From positions 1 to 61,550 of the forward strand of contig JAETUM010000009.1 in NCBI GenBank assembly GCA_021768625.1: a stretch of DNA of 61,550 nucleotides, written 5' to 3'. The first letter of the stretch is position 1. Each line of letters begins with the position of its first letter. The DNA comes from Candidatus Stoquefichus sp. Its GTDB lineage: Bacteria > Bacillota_I > Bacilli_A > Erysipelotrichales > Coprobacillaceae. A program made the translations under genes and the position numbers. The notes beneath the pieces are model-generated. The model was not told where the DNA came from, searched no databases, and was given only the letters and a program-made list of their open reading frames with translations. Shown here piece after piece: positions 3,164-59,009 of this stretch.

Positions 3164-7352
<4,189 letters not shown>

Positions 7353-11799: not shown

Positions 11800-12012
11800 T
11801 AAAAAAAGCAAAGAACAGAAGAGATTAAAAGGGCGTTATAGAGAGCTGATGGTTGGTGTAAATCAGCACATAACTTTTATGAAAATGGTCTGGGAGCTGT
11901 TATCTTGAATAGTTAGAGATAAACGTTAACTGCGTTAAAGTTTTGAGAGACACAGATGTGTAAAAAAGGTGGTACCGCGTTATATGACGTCCTTTTATAG
12001 GGCGTTTTTTAT
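11800..12012 (+). promoter_or_regulatory. T-box riboswitch leader of metG
   Basis: The leader carries the T-box sequence AAGGTGGTACCGCG at about 11966-11979. It includes the UGGU (11970-11973) that pairs with the uncharged tRNA acceptor end. Stem I elements AGAGAGCTGATGGTTGGTG lie at about 11840-11858. AUG triplets at 11879-11881 and 11885-11887 are candidate methionine specifier codons. A competing terminator ends it: GACGTCC pairs with GGGCGTT, then T-rich sequence to 12012. Uncharged tRNA-Met would stabilise the antiterminator and raise metG expression. Confidence 0.9.
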
Positions 12013-12027: not shown

Positions 12028-13950
12028 ATGATGAAAGACCCAAAAGATTATTATTTAACAACAGCAATTACATATACTTCTGGTAAACCTCATATTGGAA
12101 ACACGTATGAAATCATATTAGCAGATGCAATTGTAAGAAGTAAAAGACAAGAAGGATATAATGTTTATTTTCAAACTGGTACAGATGAGCATGGACAAAA
12201 GATTGAATTAAAGGCTAAAGAGGCTGGAATACCTCCAAAACAATTTGTTGACGAGAAAGCAGCAATTGTTAAAAATATTTGGGATTTAATGGATACAACA
12301 TATGATAGGTTCATGAGAACAACAGATGAGTATCATATTAAACAAGTTCAAAAAATATTTAAAAAATTATATGATCAAGGTGATATTTATTTAGGACATT
12401 ATGAAGGAAAGTACTGTACAGCATGTGAATCATTCTTTACAGAATCACAATTAGTAGATGGAAAGTGTCCAGATTGTGGTGGAGAAGTTCATGATGCAAA
12501 AGAAGAAGCTTATTTCTTTAAATTATCTAAATATGCAGATCGTCTTATCAAACATATAGAAGAACATCCAGAATTTATTCAACCTGTTTCAAGAAAGAAC
12601 GAAATGATGAATAACTTCTTAAAGCCAGGATTACAAGATTTGTGTGTATCACGTACAACTTTTAAATGGTCAATTCCTGTAGACTTTGATCCAAAACACG
12701 TTGTTTATGTATGGATAGATGCACTTACAAATTATATTACAGGACTAGGTTATGATGTAGATGGAAATCATGGCGAGTTATATAAAAAGTATTGGCCTGC
12801 GGATCTTCATTTAATAGGAAAAGATATTGTAAGATTCCATACAATTTATTGGCCAATTATGTTAATGGCTTTAGATATACCTTTACCAAAACAAGTCTTT
12901 GGGCATCCTTGGTTATTACAAGGAGAAAGTAAGATGTCTAAGTCTAAAGGAAATGTTATTTATGCTGATGATTTAGTAGATATCTTTGGTGTAGATGCTG
13001 TTAGATATTATGTTTTACATGAAATTCCATATGATAATGATGGAAGTATTACATGGGATTTATTAGTTGAACGTATTAATTCTGATTTGGCTAATATTTT
13101 AGGAAATCTAGTGAATAGAACAATAGCCATGACTAATAAATATTTTGATGGTATTGTAACAAATCCACATGTTGAAGAACCTGTAGATAATGAATTAAAA
13201 GAAATTGCTTTAGCAATGCCACATAAAGTACAAGCATTAATGGATGAATTTAAAGCATCTAAAGCATTAGATGAAATCTTTGTATTACTTAGAAGAACAA
13301 ACAAATATATTGATGATACAATGCCATGGGCATTGGCTAAAGATGAAACAAAAAAAGATCGTTTAGCAACAGTTCTTTATAATTTGATTGAGGCTATTCG
13401 CTTTGCAGCTATTGCATTAGAACCATATATGCCATCAACATCAACAAAAATCTTAGATCAAATTAATACAGATCAAAGAGAAATGAAGGATTTAACAACT
13501 TTTGGTTTATACAAAGAAGGAACAAAAGTAACAGATAAACCACAACAATTATTTGCAAGATTAGATCCAAAAGAAGTTGAAAAGAAAGTTAATGCTTTAC
13601 AACCTAAAAAAGAAGAACCAAAAGAAGACAATCTTATTACTATTGATGACTTTGCTAAAATAGAATTAACAGTAGGAACTGTAGAAAAATGTGAAAAACA
13701 TCCAAGTGCAGATCGCTTGTTAGTATCACAAATTAATATTGGAAAAGAAACGAGACAAATTGTTTCTGGAATTGCAGAACATTATACACCTGAGGATATG
13801 ATAGGTAAAAAAGTTATTGTTGTAAGTAATTTAAAACCTGCAATGCTTAGAGGAGTAGAGTCTCAAGGAATGATTCTTGCTGGATCAAAGAAAAAATTAT
13901 TAGAAGTTATTTCAGTAGACAATCTTCCAAACGGAACAAAAATACATTAA
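12028..13950 (+). CDS. metG: Methionyl-tRNA synthetase
   Basis: The class I synthetase charges tRNA-Met (640 residues). The HIGH-type motif is PHIG (21-24), and KMSKS is intact at about residue 303. A four-cysteine zinc knob (CTAC and CPDC, about 131-151) is present. A C-terminal tRNA-binding OB domain (about 540-640) has the GTVEKCEKHPSADRLL pattern. AAAGGAG precedes ATG 12028; ATG 12031 is also possible. Expression is controlled by the T-box immediately upstream. Confidence 0.96.
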   Translation: MMKDPKDYYLTTAITYTSGKPHIGNTYEIILADAIVRSKRQEGYNVYFQTGTDEHGQKIELKAKEAGIPPKQFVDEKAAIVKNIWDLMDTTYDRFMRTTDEYHIKQVQKIFKKLYDQGDIYLGHYEGKYCTACESFFTESQLVDGKCPDCGGEVHDAKEEAYFFKLSKYADRLIKHIEEHPEFIQPVSRKNEMMNNFLKPGLQDLCVSRTTFKWSIPVDFDPKHVVYVWIDALTNYITGLGYDVDGNHGELYKKYWPADLHLIGKDIVRFHTIYWPIMLMALDIPLPKQVFGHPWLLQGESKMSKSKGNVIYADDLVDIFGVDAVRYYVLHEIPYDNDGSITWDLLVERINSDLANILGNLVNRTIAMTNKYFDGIVTNPHVEEPVDNELKEIALAMPHKVQALMDEFKASKALDEIFVLLRRTNKYIDDTMPWALAKDETKKDRLATVLYNLIEAIRFAAIALEPYMPSTSTKILDQINTDQREMKDLTTFGLYKEGTKVTDKPQQLFARLDPKEVEKKVNALQPKKEEPKEDNLITIDDFAKIELTVGTVEKCEKHPSADRLLVSQINIGKETRQIVSGIAEHYTPEDMIGKKVIVVSNLKPAMLRGVESQGMILAGSKKKLLEVISVDNLPNGTKIH

Positions 13951-54538: not shown

Positions 54539-55747
54539 TTATTCACCCCAAGCGACACCACAATGATCAACACCATATACAGCTTCACTGTGAGTAAATC
54601 CTTCAAACTCTAATTGATTGATAAGACCTTCACGAGAAAATGCCATAATTTCTAAATAACTTTTTGCTGTTCTAACAGCTTGTTGATTCCAGTTGGCACC
54701 ACAATTATTAACACCATAAGTAACTTGACTAGCAGTAAAACCTTCAAATTCTAATTGCTCAACAAGGCCTTGACGAGAGAAAGGCATAGTTTCTAAATAA
54801 CTCTTTGCTGTTTTCAAGGCTTGAACATTCCAATCAGCACCACAATGATCAGCGCCATAAGTAGCTTGACTAGTCGTAAAACCTTCAAATTCTAATTGTT
54901 CAATAAGCCCTTGACGAGAGAAAGGCATAATAGCTAGATAATCTTTGGCCATTTTAACAGCTTGATCATTGGCCGTATAATTTTTTACTGTAATTTTGCA
55001 TTTTAAAGTTTTCCCATCTACTTTCGCAGTGATGGTTGCAGTACCAGCTTTTTTAGCAGTTACTTTTCCTGCAGAAGAAACTGTAGCAACACTCTTATTA
55101 TTAGAAGACCAAGTGACTTTCTTACTTGTTCCAGTAACTTTTAAGGTATAAGTATTACCTTTGTATAAAGTTTTAGAAGTTACATTAAGTTTAATAGGAT
55201 TTTTGACAGTGATTTTACATTTTAAAGTTTTTCCGCTCACTTTTGCAGTGATGGTTGCAGTACCAGCTTTTTTAGCAGTTACTTTTCCTGCAGAAGAAAC
55301 TGTAGCAACACTCTTATTATTAGAAGACCAAGTGACTTTTTTACTTGTTCCAGTAACTTTTAAGGTATAAGTATTACCTTTGTATAAAGTTTTAGAAGTT
55401 ACATTAAGTTTAATAGGATTTTTGACAGTAATTTTACATTTTAAAGTTTTTCCACTTACTTTTGCAGAAATAGTTGCAGTACCAGCCTTTTTAGCAGTTA
55501 CTTTTCCTGTAGAAGAAACTGTAGCAACGCTCTTGTTGCTTGAAGACCATTTGACTTTCTTCTTAGTATTTAATACTTTTAATGTGTAAGTTTTTCCTTT
55601 ATCAATTGTCTTTTTTGTTGTATTTAGCTTAATCGTAGCCTTTGCTTGAACTTCTATAATTGGATTTTCTATAGGTAGTCCTTGCGATATAGGAACTCCT
55701 AAGAGTACTCCTATTGTAATTGATGAGATAATTATTTTTTTTATCAT
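54539..55747 (-). CDS. Secreted protein with three BIG2 and three Ltp repeats
   Basis: The 402-residue protein has a signal peptide (MIKKIIISSITIGVLLGVPI, then mature region from about 36). Three Ig-like BIG2 units (38-110, 111-183, 184-256) follow, then three Ltp-type repeats of about 47 residues (260-402). Each Ltp repeat has an FSRQGLIEQLEFEGF-type core and a YG-HCG pattern. Repeats of this type occur in the phage TP-J34 lipoprotein Ltp, which blocks phage DNA entry, and in many bacterial surface proteins. No LPXTG or lipobox is visible; surface attachment is not explained. AGAGGTGGAAAC precedes the ATG. Function unknown; phage exclusion is a hypothesis. Confidence 0.8.
   Translation of the reverse strand: MIKKIIISSITIGVLLGVPISQGLPIENPIIEVQAKATIKLNTTKKTIDKGKTYTLKVLNTKKKVKWSSSNKSVATVSSTGKVTAKKAGTATISAKVSGKTLKCKITVKNPIKLNVTSKTLYKGNTYTLKVTGTSKKVTWSSNNKSVATVSSAGKVTAKKAGTATITAKVSGKTLKCKITVKNPIKLNVTSKTLYKGNTYTLKVTGTSKKVTWSSNNKSVATVSSAGKVTAKKAGTATITAKVDGKTLKCKITVKNYTANDQAVKMAKDYLAIMPFSRQGLIEQLEFEGFTTSQATYGADHCGADWNVQALKTAKSYLETMPFSRQGLVEQLEFEGFTASQVTYGVNNCGANWNQQAVRTAKSYLEIMAFSREGLINQLEFEGFTHSEAVYGVDHCGVAWGE
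54542..54970 (-). repeat. Three tandem about 141-bp Ltp repeats
   Basis: The unit encodes residues about 260-306, 307-353 and 354-402, with strongly conserved KSYLE-MPFSRQGL-EQLEFEGF positions. The copies have diverged more than the BIG2 units. Confidence 0.75.
54980..55417 (-). repeat. Two near-identical 219-bp BIG2 repeats (third, diverged copy upstream)
   Basis: Residues 111-183 and 184-256 differ at only two positions. DNA of the two units (55199-55417 and 54980-55198) is almost identical. The first unit, at about 55418-55636, is more diverged. Copy number could vary by recombination. Confidence 0.85.
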
Positions 55748-55850: not shown

Positions 55851-56810
55851 CTATTTTTTAAAATAATTATCTATTCCATTTGCTATTCCTATTGCACATT
55901 TTGTTTGATATGCAGAGGTTGCTAGTTTTTTATCCTCTTGTTTATTTGACATAAAGCCCATTTCAATAATTGTTACAGGGACTTTACACCAGTTAATTCC
56001 ACTCATATCATCTCTATAACTTACACTTCTATTCTTAGCTTTTGTATTTTTACAAAAACTATTAATAATTGATTTGGCTAATTTTTGTGAAGATGTTTTG
56101 ACATTTTTAGAAACATACTTGTTTTTTGATGTCGGAGCAATTGTATGAGCACCACTAATTTTTGGATTGCTACTTCCATCACAATGCAACCTAATGAAAA
56201 CATCTGCTTTTGCTTTATTTGCTATATCAGCCCTTTGTTTATTAGAGATATTAACATTTTGTTTTGTTCTTACCATAATTACTTTATAGCCTCTTTTAAC
56301 GAGTTCTGTTTGTAATTTTTTAGCAACTGCCAAGTTAATTTCAGATTCCTTTTTCTTAGTCCATTTCCCTGTTGTTCCAGTTGTCACCTTGGCTTTCTTT
56401 TCTTTTGCACCTGGTCCAATAGGTTCCTTTGCATTGTTTCCTTTTGCTTGGTGTCCTGCATCAATGACAACAATTTTTTGATTTTTGACAGTAATTTTGC
56501 ACTTTAATGTTTTTCCGCTTACTTTTGCATAAATATAGGCAATACCAACTTTTTTTGCTGTTACCTTTCCTTTAGAGGTAACTGTGGCAACACTTGTCTT
56601 ATCAGAAGACCAAGTCACTTTTTTATTTGTTCCAGAAACTTTTAAAGTAAGACTTTTTCCTTTGTAAAGTGTTTTAGATGTTACATTAAGTTTGATTTTA
56701 TCCTTTGCTTGAACTTCAATAACAGGATTTTGTACAACAGATACTTGAGAAATTGTTATTCCAAGTAATAATCCTAATGTAAGTGAAATGGTAATTATTT
56801 TTTTAAACAT
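55851..56810 (-). CDS. Secreted N-acetylmuramoyl-L-alanine amidase with a BIG2 domain
   Basis: The 319-residue protein has a signal peptide, one BIG2 domain (about 37-109) and an Amidase_3 domain (about 112-319). Zinc and catalytic residues are visible in IDAGHQ, ESEINLA, IRLHCDGS and IIEMGFMSN. The first 45 residues closely resemble those of the BIG2-Ltp protein, so they are paralogous at the N-terminus. AAGGGGGAAGG precedes the ATG. It should cut peptidoglycan at the cell surface. Confidence 0.87.
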   Translation of the reverse strand: MFKKIITISLTLGLLLGITISQVSVVQNPVIEVQAKDKIKLNVTSKTLYKGKSLTLKVSGTNKKVTWSSDKTSVATVTSKGKVTAKKVGIAYIYAKVSGKTLKCKITVKNQKIVVIDAGHQAKGNNAKEPIGPGAKEKKAKVTTGTTGKWTKKKESEINLAVAKKLQTELVKRGYKVIMVRTKQNVNISNKQRADIANKAKADVFIRLHCDGSSNPKISGAHTIAPTSKNKYVSKNVKTSSQKLAKSIINSFCKNTKAKNRSVSYRDDMSGINWCKVPVTIIEMGFMSNKQEDKKLATSAYQTKCAIGIANGIDNYFKK

Positions 56811-56857: not shown

Positions 56858-57799
56858 CTAATCGAAAGTTACATATTCATTTTCTAAAGGAGGAACAACT
56901 TTTAATTCATCCACCTTTAATACACAAACATTTCCACCTAGTTCATGGTCATACTCAAGTTCAATTTTTCCCTTTACTTGAATCCATTCGTTAGGTATAA
57001 GTTGCTTTGCTGCTGAATGAATACAAACCATGCCTATGAGAGAGGTATCTTCTTCACAGCATACCATAGCTAGTCTCCCTATAACGAAACCATCTTCTAA
57101 TTGCTTATCTCTGCCTATAAATTTACCTTTCATTGTGATTGTCTTGCCAGCATATTTATCAGGATGATCTAATGCATCCATACAAAATATACCAAAATCA
57201 TGATCTAAGATTTCAAGTTCATCATTTGTTATATCAAAAGGCAATTCGTCTTCATCTAATGTATTAACAGTTCCATCTTCTTTTTCATATATAATTTGAC
57301 ATTGAGAATTAATAGCTTTAATATTATTTCTCAAAAATGATTTTTTAATAGAATCATTAATTCTATTGAAAATTAATAAATCAGTATGTACAACATGTTG
57401 AAATAATAAAGATCTCATATTTTGAATATATAGTGCAAAAGTTTGAGCATTGATAGTTGTTAAAACTTGAACAACTTGCCATCCATCGGGTAAACTACAT
57501 GCTAAAAATCTATTCACATTATACATACCATTTAATTCTACTAGAACTTGAGTAGGATTGTACTTGTCTTTTAATTCTTCAAAATACTCATATGTCCATT
57601 GATCCTCACTTGTTACATAAACAAGATCACAATGAAATGATTCAAGTTGTTCTTGATTATATTCAAGTTCTCCCTGTTCACTTACAATTAATAAAGATTT
57701 TTCATTTTCACAAAAATCAGTAGTTGTAATTGTATCATTAATAAATGTAGACTTTCCACTATCCAAAAAACCAGTAAATAAATAAATTCTTGTTTTCAT
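56858..57799 (-). CDS. CobW-like GTPase fused to a DUF1980/YcgQ-type domain
   Basis: The 313-residue protein has an N-terminal P-loop GFLDSGKSTF (10-19) and CobW-like fold, but lacks the CxCC metal motif. Residues about 200-313 resemble the C-terminal domain of YcgQ (COG3689): DHPDKYAGKTITMKGKF, LAMVCCEEDTSLIG and EWIQVKGKIELEYD. That family is linked to zinc homeostasis and the COG0701 permease. It starts in the stop codon of the His-rich CobW gene (TAATG), so both are made together. Function inferred: metal handling. Confidence 0.72.
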   Translation of the reverse strand: MKTRIYLFTGFLDSGKSTFINDTITTTDFCENEKSLLIVSEQGELEYNQEQLESFHCDLVYVTSEDQWTYEYFEELKDKYNPTQVLVELNGMYNVNRFLACSLPDGWQVVQVLTTINAQTFALYIQNMRSLLFQHVVHTDLLIFNRINDSIKKSFLRNNIKAINSQCQIIYEKEDGTVNTLDEDELPFDITNDELEILDHDFGIFCMDALDHPDKYAGKTITMKGKFIGRDKQLEDGFVIGRLAMVCCEEDTSLIGMVCIHSAAKQLIPNEWIQVKGKIELEYDHELGGNVCVLKVDELKVVPPLENEYVTFD

Positions 57800-58914
57800 T
57801 ATTTAACTCCAAATAAATTCCAAATTTTTTCTTCTACAAGATCTTTCCCTATAACACATAAACGACCAGTATAATCAGCTGAACCCTCACGAATTTCATA
57901 TTCACCAGGAACTAAATCAAAATGTAACCAAGTCTTTTCAGGTGTAGAGAGGATACCTTTTGCACGTAAAATATGTCCAAATTCTTGAGATGAAGAAAGT
58001 TCTTTAAGAATATTATCTAACTGTTCATATGTATATGTTTGAATAGTTTCTTTACCAATACTTGTGAAAACTTCATCAGCATGATGATGATGTTCACCAT
58101 GGCAACATTCGTGTTCATGATGGTGTTCTCCATGACAACATTCATGTTCATGATGATGGTGTTCTTCATGGCAACATCCATGTTCATGATGGTGGTGTTC
58201 ACCATGACAACATTCATGCTCATGATGATGGTGTTCATCATGACAACATTCATGTTCATGATGGTGATGACCACACTCAGGACAAATATCTTCTTCTTTC
58301 ATTAAAATTTCTTTTAAAGAATCTTTATTTTCTAATGCACTTAGTATAGTATCACCACTTAAGTCATCCCAAGGTGTTGTAATGATATTTGCATTTGTAT
58401 TCAATTGTTTAATGAGATTAATATCATCTTGTATCTTATCTAAAGTTATATCTTGTGTTCTACTTAAAATAATAGTAGAAGCATATTCTATTTGGTTATT
58501 AAAAAATTCACCAAAGTTTAAAGAATAAGTCTTGCATTTTTTAGCATCAATAACAGCAATAAAACTATTAAGTTGAAGTTCATCATCATGAACATCCACA
58601 ACAGCTTGAATGACATCAGATAATTTTCCAACTCCAGATGGTTCGATAATAATACGATCAGGATGATATTCATGAACAACTTTCTTTAATGCTTCGCTAA
58701 AATCACCAACCAATGAACAACAAATACATCCAGAATTCATTTCAGTGATTTCAATACCTGCATCTTTAAGAAAAGAACCATCAATTCCAATTTCACCAAA
58801 TTCATTTTCAATTAAAACAACCTTTTCATTGCCTAAGCTTTCTTGAATAAGTTTTTTAATTAATGTTGTTTTTCCAGCTCCTAAAAAACCAGAAATAATA
58901 TCTACTTTACTCAT
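57799..58914 (-). CDS. CobW/COG0523 metallochaperone GTPase with His/Cys repeat
   Basis: The 371-residue protein has Walker A GFLGAGKTT (9-17), the metal motif CICC (63-66), and EPSGVGKLSD. A metal-binding insert at 211-278 starts CPECG and continues as five units of the type HHHHEHECCHGE, giving 33 His and 12 Cys. A C-terminal CobW_C domain (about 280-371) ends the protein. COG0523 GTPases deliver metals, often zinc, to client proteins. Transcribed with the DUF1980 fusion gene. The insert should bind several zinc or other soft-metal ions. Confidence 0.85.
   Translation of the reverse strand: MSKVDIISGFLGAGKTTLIKKLIQESLGNEKVVLIENEFGEIGIDGSFLKDAGIEITEMNSGCICCSLVGDFSEALKKVVHEYHPDRIIIEPSGVGKLSDVIQAVVDVHDDELQLNSFIAVIDAKKCKTYSLNFGEFFNNQIEYASTIILSRTQDITLDKIQDDINLIKQLNTNANIITTPWDDLSGDTILSALENKDSLKEILMKEEDICPECGHHHHEHECCHDEHHHHEHECCHGEHHHHEHGCCHEEHHHHEHECCHGEHHHEHECCHGEHHHHADEVFTSIGKETIQTYTYEQLDNILKELSSSQEFGHILRAKGILSTPEKTWLHFDLVPGEYEIREGSADYTGRLCVIGKDLVEEKIWNLFGVK
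58081..58284 (-). repeat. In-frame 36-bp tandem repeats coding for the His/Cys segment
   Basis: Five units of 36 bp (one shortened by a codon) encode residues 211-278. Reading frame is conserved in all copies, so expansions or contractions change metal capacity in steps. Confidence 0.85.
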
Positions 58915-58937
58915 AATATGACCTTCTTTCTGTATGT

Positions 58938-58966
58938 ATTATAACACTCGTATTTTTAACAGGCAA
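58938..58966 (-). promoter_or_regulatory. Promoter of the CobW operon
   Basis: On the minus strand TTGCCT (58966-58961) and perfect TATAAT (58943-58938) have a 17-base spacer. No clear Zur palindrome was seen at this promoter. Confidence 0.6.
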
Positions 58967-59009
58967 ATGAAATATCATACAATACTTTAAGACAATTATG
59001 AATTTATCA

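Follow-up and report, generated by a model that had tools for sequence, protein, structure and literature searches.

The window, a stretch of 61,550 bp from Candidatus Stoquefichus sp. (contig JAETUM010000009.1), was found to carry a pair of minus-strand genes in which a COG0523 (CobW-type) GTPase is followed by a second G3E GTPase (GTPase2) that lacks the CxCC motif and is fused to a C-terminal DUF1980 domain of the YcgQ family (Table 1). We consider it somewhat better than even (a probability of about 55%) that the pair serves as a module for trafficking metal in the cytosol, with Zn2+ the most likely metal, and is the soluble remnant of a clostridial membrane system. The CobW protein would bind metal at its CxCC, buffer it in a His/Cys-rich insert and move it with the GTP cycle, while GTPase2, having lost the CxCC loop and kept the nucleotide-binding motifs, would act as its partner GTPase. 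The two proteins would presumably be in direct contact, with metal flowing to or from the OB-fold CCxxD domain carried by GTPase2, which may either accept or present it. The module may have originated from a system of CobW, a GTPase2:COG0701 permease and YcgQ, which would have shed the permease and the membrane part of YcgQ, bringing the domains on either side together in one protein.

Table 1. Features of the CobW gene and the fusion gene, with their positions in the window.
Feature	Position	Strand	Basis
COG0523 (CobW-type) GTPase gene (gene 1), 371 aa	57799..58914	-	PF02492 134.7 bits, PF07683 31.6 bits
CobW Walker A, GFLGAGKT, residues 9-16	58867..58890	-	Invariant in 63 homologues
CobW CxCC (CICC, residues 63-66)	58717..58728	-	C63, C65 and C66 invariant in 63 homologues
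CobW His/Cys-rich insert, residues 211-278, 33 His and 12 Cys	58081..58284	-	Residue count
CobW ribosome binding site AGAAGG	58922..58927	-	Read from the sequence
Sigma-A-like promoter, TTGCCT-17-TATAAT	58938..58966	-	Consensus scan, overall not above shuffles; block kept 5' of the gene in near relatives
Fusion gene (gene 2), 313 aa: CxCC-less G3E GTPase (1-172) and DUF1980_C (187-310)	56858..57799	-	PF02492 and PF21537 over cut-off
GTPase2 Walker A, GFLDSGKS, residues 10-17	57749..57772	-	G10, F11, S14, G15 and K16 invariant in 68 homologues; pattern in 68/68
GTPase2 G3/Walker B-like ELNG, residues 88-91	57527..57538	-	E88 and N90 invariant, G91 nearly; aligned with CobW EPSG
GTPase2 G4-like NR, residues 145-146	57362..57367	-	Invariant in 68 homologues; aligned with CobW SR
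DUF1980_C domain, residues 187-310, predicted OB fold	56870..57241	-	PF21537; AF2 model; OB-fold matches
CCxxD motif (C247, C248, D251), candidate metal site	57047..57061	-	Invariant in 68 fusions; common to YcgQ/TIGR03943 proteins

The original prediction had placed a two-gene module at 56858–58914, and both open reading frames were found there on the minus strand. Its description of gene 1 as a COG0523 GTPase with CxCC was confirmed, with PF02492 and PF07683 both over cut-off and the sequence GCICC at residues 62–66. The CobW C-terminal domain is present (PF07683 at 31.6 bits against a cut-off of 22), GCICC was identified in 62 of 63 aligned homologues, and GFLGAGKTT and EPSG were invariant in the aligned CobW homologues. 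The count of 33 His and 12 Cys given for the insert proved exact (residues 211–278). The insert comprises 68 residues and is coded by a 36-bp tandem repeat present in 5.2 copies (58080–58263). COG0523 proteins are known to bind Zn or Co via the CxCC motif and to move the metal with the GTP cycle (PMC2770081, PMC7895991). The sequence supports reading the CxCC and the insert of CobW as classic features of a probable metal-binding protein.

Gene 2 had been described as a second, CxCC-less CobW-like GTPase fused to a C-terminal domain of the YcgQ family, and both parts were recovered. PF02492 matched residues 5–168 with 31.9 bits (cut-off 20.7), and in a profile alignment against the CobW family the CxCC loop is represented by a seven-residue gap; CxCC was found in none of the 68 fusions. 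PF21537 (DUF1980_C) matched residues 187–310 with 78 bits (cut-off 25.9), and the domain contains the invariant CCxxD. TIGR03943 gave 66.3 bits on the C-terminal part, which is under its cut-off of 88.8, and gene 2 lies below every NCBIfam COG0523 cut-off. No match to PF09323, the N-terminal membrane domain of DUF1980, was detected in the fusion, the N-terminal part of which is the GTPase.

The stop codon of CobW and the start codon of the fusion overlap as TAATG, an arrangement that usually couples translation. The fusion was present in 47 of 60 near relatives, and a DUF1980_C match was obtained in 199 of 295 sampled genomes of the order, mostly in frames of ~310–330 aa. A survey of public named genomes of the Erysipelotrichales and Clostridia yielded at least 80 fusion loci; of the 80 loci listed, 79 have CobW as the immediately preceding gene in the same orientation, in agreement with the coupling originally proposed. 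In Clostridium beijerinckii (locus L163), ~480 bases lie between CobW and the fusion. Carriers among the loci listed belong to the Erysipelotrichales (Massilimicrobiota, Thomasclavelia, Holdemania, Dielma, Sharpea, and others) and the Lachnospiraceae (Blautia and others) and also include Butyricicoccus and C. beijerinckii, the pair being found widely among Firmicutes of the human and animal gut. With 47 of 60 relatives carrying the fusion and 79 of the 80 loci listed showing the adjacency, the pair is far beyond chance; a chance association or annotation artefact was rejected on the conservation of both fusion and pair. This supports the view that CobW and the fusion form a conserved functional unit. 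The relay suggested in the original prediction, with one GTPase reading a bound state, gained no support from these results. No third conserved neighbour of the pair was identified in the 80 loci listed.

Directly downstream of the fusion, the window encodes a secreted Amidase_3 protein (a zinc amidase family) with one Big_2 domain (55851–56810, minus strand), and after it a Big_2 protein with three Lipoprotein_Ltp repeats (54539–55747, minus strand). The amidase was considered as an operon partner and rejected, an Amidase_3 gene being found at +2 in only six of the 80 loci listed, these six being from Lachnospiraceae, which is too few to build on. One clostridial genome (G777) possesses a second copy of the fusion without a CobW neighbour (L212, contig C16, 5662–6597).

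Homologous loci that include a permease were found in Clostridia. A first search covered 398 genomes from the phylum to which C. beijerinckii belongs, and 16 loci were inspected; a second, of 83 genomes, added six complete loci with the same order, two truncated where their contigs end, and one consisting of FUR, CobW and GTPase2 alone, in that order. In C. beijerinckii locus L206 (module at 3271–6759), the CxCC-less GTPase2 is a separate gene of 211 aa and the order is CobW, GTPase2, ArsP_1 permease and DUF1980 protein. In L197–L201 and L203, GTPase2 is the N-terminal domain of a COG0701/ArsP_1 permease of ~520–550 aa, a striking architecture in itself, and a DUF1980/YcgQ gene is next. CobW followed by the GTPase2:permease and a full YcgQ (TIGR03943) was observed in ten loci (L199–L201, L203 and L252–L257; modules at 5465–8970 in L200 and 6016–9515 in L252), the CobW of L203 being cut by the contig start. 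Two permease loci, both of C. beijerinckii, are without a preceding CobW. In one clostridial sample of 24 DUF1980_C loci, the permease was directly upstream in 14 of 14 YcgQ-type loci and in none of the ten fusion loci, where CobW was found instead.

Several of these modules lie among genes for zinc uptake. ZnuA, ABC-3 and FUR genes adjoin the module in L200, L203 and L252, ABC-3 and FUR genes in L201, and a ZnuA/ABC-3-like set is present in L253; no metal gene was found nearby at L197, L198 or L255–L257. Gene order and gene fusion in the permease loci connect the YcgR/YcgQ family both with the COG0523 metal GTPases and with zinc operons of the ZnuABC-Fur type. The link to zinc made in the original prediction is supported by these permease loci within ZnuABC-Fur clusters. 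Zinc is favoured because of this uptake context, and on sequence evidence it is the best reading of the metal role that the pair may have.

It is unlikely, in our estimation, that the module instead serves cobalt or nickel, with CobW handing Co2+ or Ni2+ to a client and the fusion acting as an insertase. The cobalt CobW does belong to COG0523 (PMC7895991), His-rich stretches are also typical of the nickel proteins HypB and UreG (PMC2770081), and locus L199 adjoins CbiM- and NikL-like Co/Ni transporter genes. However, L199 is a single Co/Ni locus against three with Znu and Fur genes (L200, L203 and L252); L201, which has ABC-3 and FUR, makes a fourth. In addition, no clear HypB or UreG was found among the cobW-family matches of the window genome, the weak match that was inspected (L004) overlapping FtsY.

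A similarly low probability is given to a role as a store or sink, in which the CobW insert would be a metal sponge, the pair would protect against excess metal and GTPase2 would regulate release. The length of the insert, its construction from repeats and its variation among 44 CobW homologues, which have 18–54 His from residue 190 to the ADEV motif, are as expected of a buffer, and the best NCBIfam match of the permease, although under cut-off, is the SO_0444 Cu/Zn efflux family. Yet the CxCC is invariant in the CobW homologues, and the permease version is surrounded by znuABC uptake operons, not by efflux genes.

Returning to the trafficking module and its possible origin, CobW, GTPase2:permease and YcgQ occur in fixed order, with several of the loci in ZnuABC-Fur clusters, and the window pair therefore looks like the permease system minus the permease and the YcgQ membrane part, with the soluble parts left. 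In an unrooted G-domain tree, the fusions clustered together (100/100). A second clade (98/86), separate from GTPase2, united the CobW partners with the CobW proteins encoded in znu loci, and the GTPase2 proteins that are free or fused to a permease were placed outside both the fusion and the CobW groups. The C-terminal-domain tree, also unrooted, split the fusions from YcgQ (100/99). A placement of the fusion inside the group of permease-fused GTPase2 proteins was considered and dropped, as the G-domain tree does not place the root. Loss of the permease, rather than its gain, would be the simpler reading, because the fusion is obtained when GTPase2 is joined to the C-terminal domain and the intervening part removed; it is not proven, since neither tree is rooted.

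No COG0701/ArsP_1 permease was detected next to the pair in the neighbourhood covered by the window. The idea that the pair's permease is encoded elsewhere in the genome was rejected, as the two ArsP_1 genes present both lie in arsenic-type clusters, accompanied by genes for ArsR and arsenate reductase. In 30 of the 47 fusion-bearing relatives, no protein exceeded the ArsP_1 cut-off, so that the missing permease is lineage-wide; taken with the arsenic-type setting of the two genes in the window genome, this means that the pair is independent of the permease. The original prediction had called a fusion without permease unusual, which holds against the literature but not against the genomes, the arrangement being common in Erysipelotrichales and in many Lachnospiraceae.

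Control of the pair by Zur under zinc starvation is doubtful. ZnuA was not found in the window genome, and the only Fur-family protein found there is nearest to PerR models (97.5 bits, under cut-off) and adjoins a rubrerythrin-like gene. A search near 58914–59000 for the Zur box TCGTAATNATTACGA gave no match within three mismatches, although clostridial Zur boxes may differ, and no shared palindrome was seen by eye upstream of CobW in the relatives. Zur control was set aside because neither the three-mismatch search nor the reading of upstream regions gave anything, and the missing ZnuA and the likeness of the Fur protein to PerR add to the doubt. For the same reasons, the zinc link of the window pair itself comes only by homology.

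The full-length fusion was modelled with AF2 at a pLDDT of 88 and a pTM of 0.70, and its G domain was closest to HypB (VIA Z 14.2) and YjiA (13.9). In the profile alignment, Val39 of GTPase2 lies opposite the first glutamate of IENEFGE, which we take to be E37 of YjiA; the title of PDB entry 4ixn names E37, C66 and C67. The loss of the CxCC loop and the Val39 substitution would suit a degenerate paralogue, with the fusion a passive scaffold without GTPase activity. This is improbable, as 68 homologues show no or almost no variation at the Walker A residues or at E88, N90, N145 and R146.

The DUF1980_C domain modelled alone (pLDDT 90) was predicted to adopt an OB fold, with a VIA Z of 10.6 to Ten1. 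In the full-length model, the CCxxD loop (residues 247–250) is the least certain part, at a pLDDT below 50. No solved DUF1980_C structure was found by sequence search, which returned only YjiA matches on the G domain. The pattern R..M.CC..D is common to the fusions and YcgQ, and in two YcgQ proteins CCxxD is replaced by HCxxD, a variant that is as expected if the motif is a putative metal ligand. These two proteins (L208 and L209) also have loops rich in His and Cys that connect membrane spans 2 and 3; together with HCxxD, these loops point to probable metal ligands. It is very unlikely that the domain binds nucleic acid or another protein in place of metal and that the pair is a regulator under the control of GTP, acting for instance on ribosomes or tRNA, since the best structural matches of the isolated domain are indeed nucleic-acid OB folds (Ten1, MCM, SSB, and AspRS) but a common OB fold shows no function, and the invariant CCxxD is kept in membrane-bound YcgQ, with C to H in two of them.

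Hydropathy analysis of 14 clostridial YcgQ proteins (L197–L210) indicated three membrane spans with the C-terminal domain outside. B. subtilis YcgQ with a C-terminal mVenus has been imaged and is listed with four spans (PMC6120080), and a DUF1980 protein of S. aureus is listed as a lipoprotein (PMC5020093). YcgR and YcgQ (ScfA and ScfB) are conserved membrane proteins needed by group A streptococcus in mouse soft-tissue infection (PMC5584981).

Compared with the COG0523/G3E GTPases YjiA, YciC, ZigA and CobW, gene 1 likewise has Walker A, GCICC, a His-rich region and CobW_C. Gene 2 resembles them in its G-domain fold and differs in being without the CxCC loop and CobW_C and in ending in DUF1980_C. 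That C-terminal domain, with its R..M.CC..D, is like that of YcgQ/TIGR03943 proteins such as ScfB, the partner of the COG0701 permease YcgR/ScfA; unlike YcgQ, the fusion has no DUF1980_N membrane part and no adjoining permease, and it begins with a GTPase. The clostridial permease loci share with the pair the CobW clade, the CxCC-less GTPase, the CCxxD domain and the gene order, whereas they are membrane-bound and have a GTPase2 that is either a free protein or part of the permease instead of being joined to DUF1980_C. The nickel systems of HypB or UreG with UreE likewise divide the work between a His-rich carrier of metal and a GTPase, HypB being the best fold match of the fusion model; in contrast, both window proteins are GTPases, and no urease or hydrogenase genes are linked to them.

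A search of the open literature (subscription papers lying outside it) found no paper that treats COG0523 in connection with either DUF1980 or COG3689, and neither COG3689 nor COG0701 nor permeases are mentioned in the founding COG0523 survey. G3E metal GTPases are known; the two-GTPase variant with an OB domain and the link to YcgRQ appear to be undescribed in the open literature searched. A broader proposal, possible though with the odds clearly against it, is that a G3E GTPase without a metal site drives or gates metal transfer via a CCxxD OB domain. On this view, YcgR/YcgQ would transport zinc in a GTPase-coupled manner, and the window pair would represent a soluble version of that system without the permease, with two different G3E GTPases as an obligate pair. 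As the permease-free fusion is a soluble protein, the role of its CCxxD domain is directly measurable.

A further CobW-like GTPase without CxCC is encoded in the genome of the window itself (L220, contig C123, 4551–5513), with GGCDQETHRRR in its place, near genes resembling those for PEP carboxykinase and homocysteine methyltransferase. The window also has a T-box leader (11802–11997, plus strand) upstream of a methionyl-tRNA synthetase-like gene at 12028.
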